DNA of 64,000 nt from Ochrovirga pacifica (GTDB taxonomy: Bacteria > Bacteroidota > Bacteroidia > Flavobacteriales > Flavobacteriaceae): the NCBI RefSeq assembly GCF_000220525.1, contig NZ_AFPK01000026.1, positions 1-64,000 on the forward strand. Direction: 5' to 3'. The notes beneath the pieces are model-generated. The model did no database searches, was not told where the DNA came from, and saw only the letters and a list, made by a program, of their open reading frames with translations. Below are positions 13,532 to 20,507 of the stretch, in pieces. Made by a program: the position numbers and the translations under genes. Each line of letters opens with the position of its first letter. The stretch's first letter is position 1.

Positions 13532-15094
13532 TTATTCTGCTGGTAACAACAAGTTTGGATTTAAAACGGTTTCTGTATCTGGTATTGGAGTAAACCAAAG
13601 ACTATTGTCATATGGATCTCCAACCAATGGAATGTCTGCTGTATCTATTGGGTCTCGTAAGTCATTAACAGGTCCTACCAATTCATGTCTAACCAAATCA
13701 AACCATCTTACTCCTCCTATCTCTCCTAAAAACTCATAGGCTTTTTCAGTTAAAATTGCATCTACAATTGCATCTTTGTCTGGCAATGAAATCGCCGTGT
13801 AGTCAATAAGAGCATTTGGTAATTTCCAAAATTCAGTAGGTAACAATGCTACATCTGCTTGTTTTGTTGCCCCACCAGCGTAAGCTCTTCTTTTTACATA
13901 ATTCAGTTTTTCCCTTGCTTCTGGCAAATCTCCTGTATTGGCACAAGCTTCTGCATAGATTAACAAAATTTCGGCATAACGAATGGCTATGTTATCATTT
14001 GAAGTTTGCCACCTATGTTCAAAAACATGATCTACTGGATCTGTTGAATTAGGAGCTTGTGTTCCCCAAGTAAATTTAGTTACTACAGGGTTTCCAAACT
14101 GATCAAAAAATGGATTTCCTGTGGTAGCTGTTGAATATTCTTTTCTATACCCTTCAGGAAAATTGTTAAAGTAGGTCCATTCCATATAAAAGTCCATCCA
14201 ATTAGCCCATCTTAGACCATAGCTTCTATTATGAGTTGCAAAAGGCCAAGGATCTTTTTGACAATAGTGCGAAAAAATAACCTCTTTGTTAATTTGGTGT
14301 GGATCCTGAAAACTATGTGCAAAATCATCTGTAAGTGAGTACACTCCACCATCTATAATTTCTTTAGTTAATTGTTTCACTTGAGCCCACTTATCTGCTT
14401 CATTATAGGGCCAACCAGTTAGGTGTAAATAAACTTTCGCTAGATAAGCTTTGGCCGCTGTTTTAGAAGCATGCCCATCAGCTACCATTGGATCTGTATC
14501 TCTTGGGTTTGCAGCCCATTGCATTGCAAAAGTTAAATCATCTATAGCTTGTTGCATTACTTTTCTTTTCTGTGTCTTTTTAATCGTTAAATCTACAGCA
14601 GAAACTAAAGGCATAGGAACATCTCCAAAAGTACTAGCTAATTTGTAATAAATTACTCCTCTTACAAACCTAGCATTTGCAATATAATAGTTTAACACAT
14701 CTTCCTCTAAATCCGTTATTTGCTCTGCATTTTCTAATACAGAATTACAATTAGCAATAGTTTGGTAGCTTGTGTTCCAATTGTTTGTTACCCACGAATT
14801 TCCTCCTGTTAATCCAAAACGATCAGCTTCAATTAAAGGAATTTTATTACTTCCTGTTCTAGATGTCAAATCATCAGCACCCATATAAGATGAAAGCATT
14901 TCTAGAGACCAGGTATTTCTATGCCATACTCCAAAAATCCCTACCAATCCAGACTCTAATGTCTTATCATCAGAGTAATAACTTTGAGGAATTTCAACTC
15001 CTGACAAATCTTCATCTAAATCCTCACAACTTGTTAATGTAATACTACAACTTGCTAAGGCAACGTATATATATTTTAATATTTTATTTTTCAT
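13532..15094 (-). CDS. susD: SusD/RagB family glycan-binding lipoprotein
   Basis: 520 residues. The signal peptide carries a lipobox with Cys23 (TLTSC), followed by acidic EDLDEDLSG, the usual surface-lipoprotein export signal of Bacteroidota. TPR-like helical regions (for example about 95-215) and the conserved C-terminal EKAYEFLGEIGGVRWFDLVRH identify SusD/RagB. The protein sits over the SusC barrel at the surface and captures oligosaccharide before import. It follows the SusC gene by 30 bases and has its own terminator, so the susCD pair ends the transcript. The ligand is inferred from the neighbours (sulfated galactan), not from the protein. Confidence 0.95.
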   Translation of the reverse strand: MKNKILKYIYVALASCSITLTSCEDLDEDLSGVEIPQSYYSDDKTLESGLVGIFGVWHRNTWSLEMLSSYMGADDLTSRTGSNKIPLIEADRFGLTGGNSWVTNNWNTSYQTIANCNSVLENAEQITDLEEDVLNYYIANARFVRGVIYYKLASTFGDVPMPLVSAVDLTIKKTQKRKVMQQAIDDLTFAMQWAANPRDTDPMVADGHASKTAAKAYLAKVYLHLTGWPYNEADKWAQVKQLTKEIIDGGVYSLTDDFAHSFQDPHQINKEVIFSHYCQKDPWPFATHNRSYGLRWANWMDFYMEWTYFNNFPEGYRKEYSTATTGNPFFDQFGNPVVTKFTWGTQAPNSTDPVDHVFEHRWQTSNDNIAIRYAEILLIYAEACANTGDLPEAREKLNYVKRRAYAGGATKQADVALLPTEFWKLPNALIDYTAISLPDKDAIVDAILTEKAYEFLGEIGGVRWFDLVRHELVGPVNDLRDPIDTADIPLVGDPYDNSLWFTPIPDTETVLNPNLLLPAE

Positions 15095-15124: not shown

Positions 15125-18100
15125 TTAGAATGACAATTTAGCTCCAAAAGATACTGTTCTTGTTAGTGGATAAGAAAAAGCATCAATCCCTGCCTGTGCA
15201 TCACTATTGATAGCTGTACTAGATGCTTCTGGGTCTAAACCACTGTAATTTGTAAAGGTTACTACATTGTCTACACTTCCATAAAACCTTAAAGAGCTTA
15301 TTTTTAACTTATCAGTAATTGTCTTCGGAAAATTATATCCTAATGTGATATTACTAATTTTAAAGAAAGATGCATCTTCAACATACTGACTTACCACATA
15401 ATTCCCCGTATAATCATTCCCAACAGGATAACTTTGTTGTGATGAACCAGTGTTTGTAGGTGTCCATCTATTTCTATAATCTGCATGAGATAACATTTGA
15501 TTCATAAAATTTCTTGACCAATTGTAAGTCTCATTTCCAATAGAACCTACGCACTGGACTGCTGCATCAAATCCTTTGTACGACATATTGGTTCCCAATC
15601 CAAAAACAACATCTGGCATTGTATTACCAATAATCTGTCTATCGCTTGCTGAATAATTTCCACTATTATCTACATCTTCGTACTTAACCTCTCCTGGTTT
15701 TGATCCATAGTTCGCTGCTTCTGCAGCCTCATCTTCTTGCCAAATTCCTATAGCTTTTAACCCATACAAACTTCCCATTTCTTCACCTTTTTTTACAATA
15801 AATTTAGAATTTCCTCCTACCAAACTCCATATACCTAATGGCTCTTCATTGGCTAAAAAGGTTTCATCTAAACCACCTAAATCTTTTACTATGTTCACAT
15901 TTCTAGATACATTTACGTAAGCATCCCAATGTAAATCTTGACTATCCATTACATTAAAGTTTACCCCTAACTCAATACCATTGTTATGAATTTCAGCTAG
16001 GTTAGCTCCAAACGATGGACTTCCTGTATATCTTGGGATCGATTTTTCCAATACAATATCTGATGTTTGTTTTGAGTATAAGTCTAACGTTACACTCAAA
16101 CGGTTGTTCAACATTCCTGATTCCACACCAAAATTGTACTGAGTTGTTCTTTCCCACTTAATAAATGGATCTGTTGGGCTTCCTAAGATTTTACCTGTTG
16201 TTGTATTTTGTCCGTCTAACAAAGAAGAACCAAATCCTGCTGCAACGTTGGGATCTGTTTCAAATTTTGTAAACCTATAATAATTATCTACAGAGCTGTT
16301 TGCTGTTGAACCAAAACCTACTCTTAACTTTAACCTACTTAACCACTCAGAATTTTTTACAAATTCTTCTTTTGTAGCATTCCATGCCAATGCTGCTGAT
16401 GGAAAGTAATCCCATCTGTGATCTGGATGTAATACAGAGTGCCCATCTGCTCTTAACGAAGCTGTTAGCAAATACTTCCCTTTGTAACTGTAATTTAAAC
16501 GTCCCATATAAGATCGTATTTTTCTTGCCCCTCCTAGCCCTGTAGAAACTATTCTTGAAGGCTCTGCACTTCCTAAAAAATACCATTCGTTAGAAAGTGT
16601 AGGCAAGTTGCTAACGTTTGCTAATGTATTTTGTCCTGTTGTTTTTTGATATTCATAAACAACTGTTGCTTTAATTTTATGATCTCCAAGCTCATTTTCA
16701 TAATTCAGCATACTTGTGGTCATGTATCTTTTTCCTCTTCTGTATACGTGTTGAGCAGTTACATCATCTCTATCTACATTTACATTATCAATTAAAGTTC
16801 TTTGTCCTGTAAACCCGGTGGTAAACCTACCTGAATTGTTAAAATCAAAAGAAAATCCATTTCTTAAGTTGAAATGCAAATCTAAATTAGATAATAAACT
16901 CTCATTTTCAGTCTCTTGATTTTGCTTAATTGCTTGTTCAGGATGTACATCACGCCCTACCAAAAATGCTCCATTATAACTGTTGTAATTATTAGGGTTC
17001 ATTATATTTCCTTGATCATCTCTTGCAGGCCAAAACTGAGGAAAAATTACAGCACGTCCTAAAGCATTATTTCTACCTCCTGTCCCTACTCCATTTGCCT
17101 GACTATCAGTCATTGTTCCATAGGTATTGAATTTAAAATCTATGTTTTTCCCAATTTTTCCTGCAATATTAGATCTCAAAGATTTTCTTTTATAAAAAGA
17201 GTTCTTAATTACTCCCTCATCATCTAAGCTATTAGCAGAAAAATAATATCTTAGATTCTCACCTCCACCATTTAGGGTTAATGTATGATTTTTTCTTATT
17301 CCATCTCTTGTTACTAAATCTTGCCAGTCAGTTCCCCCGTTTTGTTTAAAATAATCTACCTCTTCTGGAGTAAAAGCTGCTGGATTTCCTAAAGCATCTC
17401 TTTGTTCATTAATCAATTCAGCCATTTCTCCTGCTGAAAGTAATTGGTATTTATTGACCATATTACTAATGCTGTAATTGGTATCAAAAGTTACTTTAAA
17501 AGGTCCACCTTCTGGTTTTACTGTAGAAATCAACACAACTCCGTTTGCTCCTAAAGAACCATAAACTGCTGTTGCTGAAGCATCTTTTAAAATATCAATC
17601 TTAGCTATATCTGCAGGGTTTATTGTAGAAATATCTGCACCAATAAAACCATCTATTACATACAAAGGCTCATTAGACCCATTAATAGAACCTGCTCCAC
17701 GTATTCTCATCTTCATTCTTTGTCCTGGTGCACCCGTATTTTGCTTAATTGCTACCCCAGCCACTCTTCCTTGCATTCCTGTTTCCATTTTTACAATAGG
17801 AGCTTTTAATAATTTTTCTGATGTAATAGAAGAGATAGCTCCAGTAACATCACTCCTCTTTTGTGTACCATATCCCACCAACACAATTTCATCTAAATCT
17901 GCGGTAGAAGCTTTCATAGTTACATTAATAGTGTTGCTATCTTTTACCAAAACTTCTTGAGTTACATAACCCATAAAAGAAAAAATCAGTACTGCTGGCT
18001 TTTCATTTACAAGAATAGAATAGTTCCCATCAAAATCAGAATTTACTCCTAAAGAAGTTCCTTTTACCATTACGGTTACTCCAATCATTGGAGTTCCTCC

Positions 18101-18532
18101 TTCATCCGTAATGGTTCCAGTAATTTTTTGACTTTGTTCATTAGCAAACCCAGACAGGGCATACATTTTTTGCGCATTGCTTGTCAACACAATCTGCTTG
18201 TCTAACACATCGTATGTAATTTGTGTGTCTTTAAAAATTCTGTCCAAAACTTTATGCACACGTGTTTCTTTAAAATCAACAGAAACTTTTTTGGCATAAT
18301 CTACTTCATTGTCGTTGTACAGAAATTTGAATTCCGTTTTAGATTCTATTTCATGCAGCACATTTTCAATACTAGTATTTTCTAACTTTAGAGTAATTTT
18401 AGTGTTTTGCGAATACGTATTGGCATGGATTTGAAACAGAGAAAAAATGAATAAATAAATAGTTAGTTTCATCTTTAAATCCAACTTTAGGGTGTAGCGA
18501 GTACTCCTCACTACATTAATGAGATTTTTCAT
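15125..18532 (-). CDS. susC: SusC/RagA TonB-linked transporter with STN signalling domain
   Basis: 1135 residues. A long leader with an internal MKLTIYLFIFSLF signal core is typical of this family, so I keep the first ATG; codon 21 is the alternative. An STN domain (about 40-120, ISLKL-type strands and FLYN) precedes a carboxypeptidase-regulatory domain (about 135-215), a plug with LYVIDGFIGAD and a C-terminal barrel ending AKLSF. SusC imports oligosaccharides across the outer membrane with SusD. The STN domain contacts FecR, so this is a transducing SusC that activates the upstream ECF sigma factor when substrate binds. The leader contains a hairpin opposite a possible antisense RNA. Confidence 0.96.
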   Translation of the reverse strand: MKNLINVVRSTRYTLKLDLKMKLTIYLFIFSLFQIHANTYSQNTKITLKLENTSIENVLHEIESKTEFKFLYNDNEVDYAKKVSVDFKETRVHKVLDRIFKDTQITYDVLDKQIVLTSNAQKMYALSGFANEQSQKITGTITDEGGTPMIGVTVMVKGTSLGVNSDFDGNYSILVNEKPAVLIFSFMGYVTQEVLVKDSNTINVTMKASTADLDEIVLVGYGTQKRSDVTGAISSITSEKLLKAPIVKMETGMQGRVAGVAIKQNTGAPGQRMKMRIRGAGSINGSNEPLYVIDGFIGADISTINPADIAKIDILKDASATAVYGSLGANGVVLISTVKPEGGPFKVTFDTNYSISNMVNKYQLLSAGEMAELINEQRDALGNPAAFTPEEVDYFKQNGGTDWQDLVTRDGIRKNHTLTLNGGGENLRYYFSANSLDDEGVIKNSFYKRKSLRSNIAGKIGKNIDFKFNTYGTMTDSQANGVGTGGRNNALGRAVIFPQFWPARDDQGNIMNPNNYNSYNGAFLVGRDVHPEQAIKQNQETENESLLSNLDLHFNLRNGFSFDFNNSGRFTTGFTGQRTLIDNVNVDRDDVTAQHVYRRGKRYMTTSMLNYENELGDHKIKATVVYEYQKTTGQNTLANVSNLPTLSNEWYFLGSAEPSRIVSTGLGGARKIRSYMGRLNYSYKGKYLLTASLRADGHSVLHPDHRWDYFPSAALAWNATKEEFVKNSEWLSRLKLRVGFGSTANSSVDNYYRFTKFETDPNVAAGFGSSLLDGQNTTTGKILGSPTDPFIKWERTTQYNFGVESGMLNNRLSVTLDLYSKQTSDIVLEKSIPRYTGSPSFGANLAEIHNNGIELGVNFNVMDSQDLHWDAYVNVSRNVNIVKDLGGLDETFLANEEPLGIWSLVGGNSKFIVKKGEEMGSLYGLKAIGIWQEDEAAEAANYGSKPGEVKYEDVDNSGNYSASDRQIIGNTMPDVVFGLGTNMSYKGFDAAVQCVGSIGNETYNWSRNFMNQMLSHADYRNRWTPTNTGSSQQSYPVGNDYTGNYVVSQYVEDASFFKISNITLGYNFPKTITDKLKISSLRFYGSVDNVVTFTNYSGLDPEASSTAINSDAQAGIDAFSYPLTRTVSFGAKLSF

Positions 18533-18539
18533 ACTTTTG
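18532..18539 (+). promoter_or_regulatory. Plus-strand -7 element opposite the susC start codon
   Basis: TACTTTTG on the plus strand matches TAnnTTTG exactly and overlaps the complement of the susC ATG. There is no plus-strand gene downstream before fecR, so its only visible product would be the short RNA ending at 18623. No -33 element is evident, and A-rich DNA before start codons can create this motif by chance. Confidence 0.4.
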
Positions 18540-18543
18540 TTTT

Positions 18544-18623
18544 TTCGTTTAGTGTTTAATTAATTGTTAGTTAGCACTATAATTATGGATCGGGAAATGT
18601 GGCCGCATTTCTCGATTTTTTTT
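18544..18623 (+). ncRNA. Candidate antisense small RNA against the susC leader
   Basis: Between fecR and susC (both minus strand) the plus strand has a consensus -7 element (18532-18539) and, about 60 bases on, a hairpin at 18589-18616. Its arms are ATCGGGAAATG and CATTTCTCGAT, the loop is TGGCCG, and eight T residues follow. On the minus strand the T-run is on the wrong side, so the hairpin cannot terminate fecR. A transcript of about 75-80 bases would be fully complementary to the susC 5' leader, with a self-complementary GGCC in the loop suited to kissing contact. Antisense RNAs of this layout (DonS type) repress susC homologues in Bacteroides. Existence of the RNA is inferred. Confidence 0.45.
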
Positions 18624-18671
18624 ATAGCACTTAAAGTGATTGGTCATCTCTTATAAGTCAAGTCATAAAAT

Positions 18672-19850
18672 TTAGTTTTTAGGTTTGTAAATGTGAATGA
18701 TATTCTCTTCTTTGGTATAGTCAATTTTAAAACTTTTGCTAAAAGTATTTAACACCTGTTCAATGGTTTCTATATCAAACCTTGCAGTAAACCTTTTTTC
18801 AGACAATTCTGTGTAGTGATTGTTAATTTTCACATTGTAGTGTCTTTCTAATTTTTTAAGTATATTTTTAAACTTTAAGTGTTTAAAAACTATTTTCCCA
18901 TCAATCCAACAAGTATATATAGAAGTGTCATACACATTACCTACTTTCATCACTTTTTTAGTATTTATCCAACTAGCTCTTTGATTGGGGTATAGGGTAA
19001 ATGGTTTTAGTACAGATTTAGATTTCTTGTCATTGTACAAGCTTACTGCTCCCTCTACCAATACTGTATTGATTGCCCAGTCTTCTGGATAACATGAAAC
19101 ATTGAATTTTGTTCCTAATACTTTTATATTAAGATCATTAGACTTTACTATAAACGGATGCTTTTTATCTTTATAAACTTCAAAAAAAGCTTCTCCTACC
19201 AAAGAGACTTCTCTTTTTTGATTGGGTAAAAATCGGATTGGATATTTTAAAGTGGTACCCGAATTTAAGTAAACTTTTGTGCTATCGGATAAAAGCAATT
19301 GAAATTGTTTTCCGTAAGGAACTGTAATGACATTAAACTTCAGCTCCGTTGTTTGTGTATCTCCTATATATGCCAGTTGTTGCCCTTTTTGTACCCCAAT
19401 CACTTCGCCCTTTTTGTTGACTAAAGTTCTGGTTCCATCCTCAGAAATTACTTCTACTTTACCATCATCGTGTTTTAGTATAATTTCATTTTCTGCATAT
19501 TGATACGTTTCTGGAGCTGTATAATAATAGTCATAAAAAAAGTAAGAAACACCAGCCAGCCCAACAAACACAGCTGCATACTTTACACTTTTTTTTAAGT
19601 AGTAAAGTTTTGTTTTAGGAGCCACCAGTTCTTCAATTTCTTTCCATTGTTGTTTTTTATCTTGTTTTAGTTTTTTGATAAACGAATTTCTTTGGTCTTT
19701 TTCTTTTTGATTGCTTAGCCTGTAAAAAATTTCTTTAGTATCTGCAGGATTGAAAAGACTTCCTATCTCATCTTCATTCACCTTTTTGTCCTTTAACATA
19801 GACAATGCTATTTTTTTAGCAAGGACAATAATATTTTCTATTCTTTTCAT
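18672..19850 (-). CDS. FecR family anti-sigma regulator
   Basis: 392 residues. A cytoplasmic N-terminal part (1-85) contacts the sigma factor, one membrane segment follows (about 88-108, VKYAAVFVGLAGVSYFFYDYYY), then the periplasmic FecR beta-helix domain (about 165-265, VPYGKQFQLLLSDSTKVYLNSG) and a C-terminal STN-like DUF4974 domain (about 325-390, LKFKNILKKLERHYNVKI). It holds the ECF sigma factor inactive until the SusC STN domain reports substrate. It lies downstream of the sigma gene (102-base gap) and upstream of susC (139-base gap with the hairpin). Confidence 0.93.
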   Translation of the reverse strand: MKRIENIIVLAKKIALSMLKDKKVNEDEIGSLFNPADTKEIFYRLSNQKEKDQRNSFIKKLKQDKKQQWKEIEELVAPKTKLYYLKKSVKYAAVFVGLAGVSYFFYDYYYTAPETYQYAENEIILKHDDGKVEVISEDGTRTLVNKKGEVIGVQKGQQLAYIGDTQTTELKFNVITVPYGKQFQLLLSDSTKVYLNSGTTLKYPIRFLPNQKREVSLVGEAFFEVYKDKKHPFIVKSNDLNIKVLGTKFNVSCYPEDWAINTVLVEGAVSLYNDKKSKSVLKPFTLYPNQRASWINTKKVMKVGNVYDTSIYTCWIDGKIVFKHLKFKNILKKLERHYNVKINNHYTELSEKRFTARFDIETIEQVLNTFSKSFKIDYTKEENIIHIYKPKN

Positions 19851-19952: not shown

Positions 19953-20507
19953 TTATACAAATAAATACCAAAACAATCCTAGGATAGATTCTTTTAAAAT
20001 AGGTCGCAATTTTTGGTACGCAATTCTTTTTTGTGCTTTTACCGTATTGATAGAAAGAGACAATTCTTCTGAAATCTGCGCATTTTCTAGGCCACTTAAA
20101 CTCAGTTTCATAATTTGCTTACAACGTTCTGGTAAGGTATTAACAGCTTTGTAAAGTACTCTGTTTACTTCTTCAATCATTACTTCTTTTTCAAAATAAT
20201 TTTCTGAAGTAAGTAAAGTCAGCTCATGTTCAGATAGCAGAGCTTTATTTTTATAAGCTTTACTTTTTAGCAAATCTAAACACTTATTTCTTACCGAAGT
20301 ATACAAATACGTTTTTACAGCCAATCGATTCTCAAACTCTACCTCTTGTTTCCAAACCTTTACAAAAACATCCTGAACCACATCTTTAGAATGTTCTAAG
20401 TCTTCTACATATTTGTTCGCAAACAAACACAACGAGTAGTAGTACGAATGATAGAACTCTTTGTATTCTTTAAGTGATAGTTTTATTTTTTTAGAGGATG
20501 ATGTCAA
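19953..20507 (-). CDS. ECF sigma-70 factor of the polysaccharide locus
   Basis: 184 residues. Region 2 (about 15-85) carries DVVQDVFVKVWKQ, the -10 recognition helix. Region 4 (about 125-175) carries LPERCKQIMKLSLSGLENAQISEELSLSINTVKAQ. No region 3, as in all ECF factors. The gene heads the minus-strand series sigma, fecR, susC, susD, so it probably activates susCD and perhaps the downstream enzymes. Its start is divergent from the TIGR02757 gene, which has its own -7 element. Confidence 0.93.
   Translation of the reverse strand: MTSSSKKIKLSLKEYKEFYHSYYYSLCLFANKYVEDLEHSKDVVQDVFVKVWKQEVEFENRLAVKTYLYTSVRNKCLDLLKSKAYKNKALLSEHELTLLTSENYFEKEVMIEEVNRVLYKAVNTLPERCKQIMKLSLSGLENAQISEELSLSINTVKAQKRIAYQKLRPILKESILGLFWYLFV

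Follow-up and report, generated by a model that had tools for sequence, protein, structure and literature searches.

Much of the breakdown of algal polysaccharide in the sea is the work of flavobacteria, and to our knowledge their choice among glycans is poorly understood beyond the sigma/anti-sigma switches. A polysaccharide locus of Ochrovirga pacifica, contained in the 64,000-nucleotide stretch of DNA analysed here (the window), raises the question of whether the leader of its susC homologue is also the template of a small antisense RNA. We consider it likely, with a probability of about 0.7, that the strand opposite the leader encodes a cis-antisense RNA of roughly 80 nt, of the DonS kind, which base-pairs with the leader of susC and thereby reduces the expression of SusCD.

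Gene context and anatomy of the plus-strand element

The locus comprises genes for an ECF sigma factor, a FecR-type anti-sigma factor and a susC-susD pair (Table 1), and GH43-like and sulfatase genes are present at 22.8-26.9 kb, with two plus-strand genes (DUF2400 and BrkB) in between. No plus-strand open reading frame of at least 90 aa overlaps the fecR-susC gap, in agreement with the earlier statement that the gap holds no plus-strand gene. At the gathering score, Rfam models identified only a tRNA in the window; within the gap, two sub-threshold matches were to microRNA models (E values 2.3 and 4.6), and no family fits.

Table 1. Genes of the locus and predicted elements of the fecR-susC gap (window positions)
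Feature	Position	Strand	Remarks
-7 box TACTTTTG (TAnnTTTG), predicted antisense promoter	18532..18539	+	base 18532 is also part of the susC ATG (complement)
Predicted antisense RNA, ~80 nt	18544..18624	+	start inferred 5 nt past the box; end set by the T-run
5' hairpin of the predicted RNA	18550..18579	+	from the fold of 18546-18625
Terminator hairpin	18587..18618	+	core stem ATCGGGAAATGT-GGCC-GCATTTCTCGAT at 18589-18616; 14 bp with flanking pairs
T8 terminator tail	18616..18623	+	first bases also close the stem
susC homologue (STN, CarbopepD_reg_2, Plug)	15125..18532	-	domain matches
susD homologue	13532..15094	-	
fecR, anti-sigma factor (FecR, FecR_C)	18672..19850	-	
ECF sigma factor (Sigma70_r2, r4_2)	19953..20507	-	
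fecR-susC gap, 139 nt	18533..18671	-	presumed susC mRNA leader (in part) and target for pairing
Two-codon ORF ATG-ACT-TGA	18658..18666	-	just past the fecR stop

The signals on which the original prediction was built were found to the base, i.e., the TAnnTTTG element and the plus-strand hairpin with its GGCC loop and eight T residues ending at 18623. As had been pointed out, the T-run lies on the side of the hairpin that does not suit termination of fecR. The 12-bp core of the terminator stem includes two pairs that are G-U on the plus strand and turn into A.C mismatches in the minus-strand RNA. The RNA from 18546 to 18625 folds with -23.7 kcal/mol (z -5.3), and the 139-nt minus-strand leader has a z of -3.3; the 5' segment, from the start to the terminator, has a z of -2.17 on the antisense versus -1.18 on the sense strand. 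The start is predicted near 18544 because TAnnTTTG is the sigma-A -7 box, located at -12 to -5, in Flavobacterium psychrophilum (PMC9723704, in excerpt). With these ends the RNA would match the susC leader base for base between about -12 and -92, in line with the fully pairing RNA of 75-80 bases that had been proposed. A terminator scan of 8 kb returned two terminator-like sites, the one in the fecR-susC gap having the longer stem, and shuffled versions of these 8 kb contained 3.3 ± 2.2. Thus, a single T-tailed hairpin is not significant on its own, and the significance of the terminator rests on its recurrence across loci.

Recurrence of the terminator and box at FecR-linked susC genes

FecR_C genes were sought in the genome of the window and in 20 relatives (12 of the same family), and then in further genera of the family. 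Only hairpins lying within the gap from fecR to its neighbouring gene were counted, and only where this gap measured 35-400 nt. Among the matches listed, an antisense terminator is present in 84 of 96 fecR-receptor gaps and a sense terminator in one; by set, the antisense terminator occurs in 34/42 gaps of the first and, among the matches listed, in 50/54 of the second. Ten dinucleotide-shuffled sets gave 4-11 of 96 each, and the regions upstream of fecR contained an antisense terminator in 3/39 and a sense terminator in 4/39 cases. The original prediction had staked itself on the presence of the T-tailed hairpin in close relatives, where it is indeed found, and what had been put forward as a single new case is instead common in the fecR-susC arrangement. 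With this recurrence, the antisense signature at the window locus is, as judged from sequence, far beyond chance.

Twelve gaps have no counted antisense terminator; one of these (L164) has a sense terminator, and another (L023) does contain the hairpin, next to a miscalled gene start. The count of 84 excludes a hairpin inside susC (L059) and one in a 935-nt gap (L122). From the first set, L018, L024, L034 and L035 were left out (sub-cut-off or receptor STN matches), and 19 of its 61 gaps are shorter than 35 nt, one of them (L061) through a miscalled start. The second set includes L100-L124 and 40 places from eight genomes, among the matches listed; 8 of its 64 gaps are shorter than 35 nt and two are longer than 400 nt. 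In L164 (G022), the sole gap with a sense terminator, the box lies over the start and a class-A-type hairpin is followed by a T-rich tail in the sense direction, as if the element were inverted. At L003, L006, L058 and L128, a second, weaker T-tailed antisense hairpin precedes the main terminator, at a distance of 40-47 nt from the start of susC, and is possibly a site of early termination.

Within the genome of the window (G000), the antisense terminator is present at 5/5 and the exact box at 4/5 full-length FecR-linked SusC genes, versus an exact box in 0/17 SusC genes without fecR, among which three weak terminator matches occur, one of them inside a gene. The original DonS study (Cao et al. 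2016) is said to have linked DonS-type RNAs to polysaccharide utilization loci (PULs) with ECF sigma/anti-sigma regulation, and the same linkage is found here. The exceptions are a receptor cut by a contig end (L004), which has the terminator and lacks the box, a broken receptor (L007) with neither, and a receptor near the FecR of L008 (L098), also with neither. At C13 of this genome (L007, L094, L096), the FecR-linked SusC gene is in two pieces, with an internal TGA, and the 43-nt gap of L007 has no antisense terminator. Four named contigs were also compared. SusC follows fecR in Aquimarina (L037) and Neptunitalea (L038), and the distance from the start to the antisense terminator is 118 and 69 nt, respectively; no antisense terminator was found near the start of the Zobellia SusC gene that follows a sulfatase gene (L036) or of L039, which follows a lacI-type gene.

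The sequence CATAnnTTTG lies over the susC start codon exactly in 47/85 aligned loci, and in 75/85 if a single mismatch is tolerated, or 47/83 and 75/83 when L059 and L125, whose hairpin is inside susC, are removed; L122, L143 and L160 had no start in range for this alignment. The T-run is 68-105 nt from the susC start in 82/85 aligned loci, a spread that is tightened by the choice, as start, of the in-frame ATG nearest to 82 nt. It had been conceded that the match to the -7 box could be due to chance, and its recurrence in the same register speaks against this. A conserved -33 element (TTTG or TTG) was not found in the aligned loci at spacings of 8-29 nt, so the promoter prediction rests on the -7 box. 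That the box is a general context of susC starts and not a promoter was ruled out by its absence from the 17 SusC genes without fecR and by its exact occurrence in only 2/81 genes (window and L036-L039), both of them SusC.

The covariance search for this hairpin that had been suggested was carried out with a model (R1) built from the terminator hairpin, with the window sequence included, which matches the window at 18587-18628 with 48.0 bits. At E ≤ 1e-3, R1 finds four places in the window's own genome, all of them fecR-susC gaps. The search of 60 genomes of the family gave 40 places, distributed over 11 genomes; 39 of these places adjoin a listed FecR_C on the other strand (coordinates compared by eye), and the fortieth is a fecR-SusC gap. 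Since 30 of them had gone into the model itself, R1 is chiefly informative on specificity. In 149 genomes of the class there are nine places, eight in fecR-susC gaps and one at an ordinary terminator. The ordinary terminators among the R1 matches are L222 (G203, beside yicC) and a weak match in the window's own genome (L218, E value 0.03).

Outside of the family, a class-wide sample with extra loci from five of its genomes, minus one locus of the window's family, gave 29 gaps; 16 gaps were shorter than 35 nt. Across all sets, L152, L174, L207, L260, L262, L268, L278 and L281 were left out as unparsed. In 15/29 gaps an antisense terminator lies at a distance of 60-135 nt from the start; a sense terminator is present in 3/29 and the full layout in 8/29. 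The genomes G173, G098 and G139 are probably Bacteroidales, because they carry the Bacteroidales-1 RNA, which the control Bacteroides ihuae matches too. G173 has a class-A hairpin and an exact box at one FecR-SusC gap, and the gaps of its family include the antisense terminator in 11/19, the sense terminator in 2/19 and the layout in 7/19. The predicted DonS-like RNA is thus, by its sequence layout, common at FecR-linked susC genes and traceable past the order, where it is less regular, perhaps partly through poorer automatic start calls. It is tempting, if doubtful, to extend this to a structured antisense RNA family (start-codon box, 5' hairpin and terminator hairpin, often with a UNNNNG loop) that would be standard in ECF-sigma/FecR SusCD loci across much of the class Bacteroidia and old enough for several orders, and whose paralogues would cross-pair enough to rank glycans.

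Structure and strand of the predicted RNA

In 82 loci, the 5' segment has a mean z of -2.98 on the antisense versus -0.33 on the sense strand, and a z below -1.5 in 73/82 versus 13/82. This segment was never selected by folding, and its z-scores are the least biased evidence for a structured RNA on the antisense strand. The terminator hairpins were compared in alignment A1, consisting of 37 of the 41 class-A hairpins, all symmetric (L019, L060, L115 and L143 are misregistered or off-distance and were left out). Without gaps, 95.7% of cells are paired, versus 41-50% in slid controls, and 73 cells are changed on both sides, versus 14.0 ± 3.1 in shuffled data; as the 37 loci were picked as hairpins, pairing is expected and the two-sided changes carry the weight. 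In alignment A2 (33 of 35 full-length loci), RNAalifold shows only the terminator hairpin because the 5' part aligns poorly, which is why the latter was tested by z-scores instead. Many of the terminator stems keep sequence features past those of a bare terminator, TCGGGAAATG-UNNNNG-CATTTTCCGA.

These observations bear on an alternative in which the act of antisense transcription, and not its product, would be effective: polymerase from the promoter at the susC start would collide with susC transcription, and the terminator would only shield fecR and the sigma gene. The promoter box does face the sense transcript, and the terminator does precede fecR in the 84 gaps counted above. Interference by itself would not require the RNA to have a conserved structure; the antisense strand of the 5' segment is, however, strongly structured, and many of the terminator stems keep the features just described. 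We regard this alternative as unlikely.

A further alternative is an RNA that acts mainly in trans on other SusC leaders, as one of a network of paralogous RNAs. The terminator hairpins are alike among paralogous loci, and the window RNA pairs with the leader of the C59 paralogue (L001) with -57.0 kcal/mol, whereas the 17 susC leaders without FecR average -23.9 kcal/mol and reach at best -32.2 kcal/mol; cross-pairing with this one leader is thus conceivable energetically. The cognate duplex is, however, far stronger (-132.9 kcal/mol; such energies ignore internal structure), and the remaining four non-cognate FecR-linked leaders reach only -25.1 to -40.0 kcal/mol, which makes a mainly trans-acting RNA rather improbable.

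A cis-antisense RNA also has to be weighed against a function of the hairpin in the sense leader, where it could be an attenuator, a stability hairpin or a ribosome-access switch for susC. The sense leader can form the hairpin too, with mismatches and the z given above, and when folded as sense RNA 62/96 gaps give a hairpin beside an A-run. The G-U pairs and the stability of the hairpin nevertheless favour the antisense strand: the terminator hairpin is stabler there in 32/34 loci. The initial search consisted of antisense folding, which favours that strand; repeated with sense folding, so that both strands were searched alike, it gave 78 loci in which the hairpin is stabler on the antisense and 7 on the sense strand. 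Moreover, the T-run follows the hairpin in the antisense direction, and the sense strand of the 5' segment is close to neutral. From this strand polarity, a sense-strand function was judged very unlikely. The notion of a stray hairpin beside a stray box, which could appeal to the ordinary frequency of T-tailed hairpins in 8 kb, is hardly credible in the face of the recurrence, register, strand and covariation tests.

The terminator hairpins vary in length, and 36/89 measure at least 39 nt (often GGGGATAGAG...CTTTATCCCC; e.g., L009, L028, L102 and L149), many of which end near the fecR stop. Many of the long hairpins accompany a SusC beginning with MKIK or MEIK, and the short class mostly MKK; two RNA subfamilies may follow two SusC lineages.

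Relation to known antisense RNAs and a possible mode of action

RNAs of the DonS family are cis-antisense RNAs of 78-128 nt that lower the expression of susC homologues (PMC7366714, in excerpt). Those associated with PULs include DonS in Bacteroides fragilis and 10, later 32, RNAs in B. thetaiotaomicron (PMC7366714, PMC10994844, both in excerpt). Like DonS, the window RNA would be short, with a predicted length inside this range, and its plus-strand signals are opposite and divergent to a PUL susC homologue, in the leader of a susC-susD pair (PMC7366714, PMC10994844, in excerpt). Over 85 loci the predicted length has a median of 79 nt (range 50-114), and on these predicted ends many loci fall slightly below 78 nt. 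Unlike DonS, the window RNA would be that of a marine flavobacterium, to judge by its kin, and is predicted here from sequence signals, and it is by layout that we liken it to DonS. The start-codon box and the two-hairpin form were measured here and are not met with in the excerpted DonS descriptions. GibS and FopS of B. thetaiotaomicron (FopS of ~65 and 70 nt) repress susC mRNAs at the 5' end, acting in trans through a short seed near the start codon, whereas the window RNA would lie opposite its own target with full complementarity (PMC11697453, in excerpt).

Flavobacterium psychrophilum belongs, like the organism of the window, to the Flavobacteriaceae and shares the TAnnTTTG box. The paper on its antisense transcription describes 287 antisense regions and mentions Bacteroides simply as a pointer, and the word FecR is absent from the main text (PMC9723704). 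A DonS-like RNA of flavobacteria was not found in the open-access literature, as judged from listings. What is added here is the detection by sequence of a candidate DonS-like RNA in the Flavobacteriaceae, the kind itself being already known.

An antisense RNA gene in the fecR-susC gap is well supported by its anatomy, conservation, strand and gene context, all of which were established at the level of sequence. The DonS layout of the original prediction holds up on the conserved box, the two hairpins that favour the antisense strand, the terminator some 80 nt away and, in the window's own genome, the restriction to FecR-linked genes. We infer that the RNA is transcribed from the predicted start, pairs with the leader in the cell and represses susC. 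Housekeeping RNA polymerase would start it at the promoter marked by the -7 box over the start codon of susC, and the intrinsic terminator would stop it before fecR. The RNA would fold into its 5' and terminator hairpins and, as both RNAs form hairpins, a loop-loop contact could start the pairing. With the ECF sigma/FecR switch off and little susC mRNA present, the antisense RNA would pair with those leaders that escape, and the pairing would block translation and/or mark the leaders for cleavage by RNase; glycan induction would outrun the antisense RNA. By analogy with DonS, the likely outcome would be that, without the glycan, susCD is repressed more sharply (PMC7366714, in excerpt). The sign is not certain, since the correlations reported between antisense RNAs and PULs of B. 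thetaiotaomicron are both negative and positive (PMC10994844, section 9, in excerpt). A further point against this reading is that the predicted RNA would stop about 12 nt short of the susC start codon.

In the family of the window, such an RNA appears, from the sequences compared, to be a regular component of susC loci linked to FecR, and the recurring signature points to a shared way of holding susC genes down. If an antisense RNA does accompany most FecR-linked susC genes, a second layer of control could be read from sequence, and an observation made in gut Bacteroides would become a testable rule, in which the signature predicts the loci with and without the RNA.

The susC leader and the start of the gene have two further features. 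A two-codon ORF (ATG-NNN-stop, often GCCTATGAAATAA), seen for example in the window and at L006, L012, L028, L054, L138, L221, L258 and L279, comes after the fecR stop and before the hairpin in 28 of the 48 leaders that are at least 25 nt long, versus 3.2 ± 1.8 of 48 in mononucleotide shuffles and 2-8 at spacings 1-2 bases off; its stops are TAA (14), TGA (8) and TAG (6). It is also present in 10/19 fecR-receptor gaps of the family of G173, probably Bacteroidales, and might act as a minimal upstream ORF or as an element of a sense promoter. Furthermore, the FecR-linked SusC has a second Met at position 21 in 54/85 loci, so that the N-terminal extension is exactly 20 residues, and this Met21 seems to open the signal peptide. 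The 60-nt extension corresponds to the region upstream of the antisense box, and translation might begin at Met1 or Met21; in the window the two candidate starts are at 18530-18532 and 18470-18472 on the minus strand.
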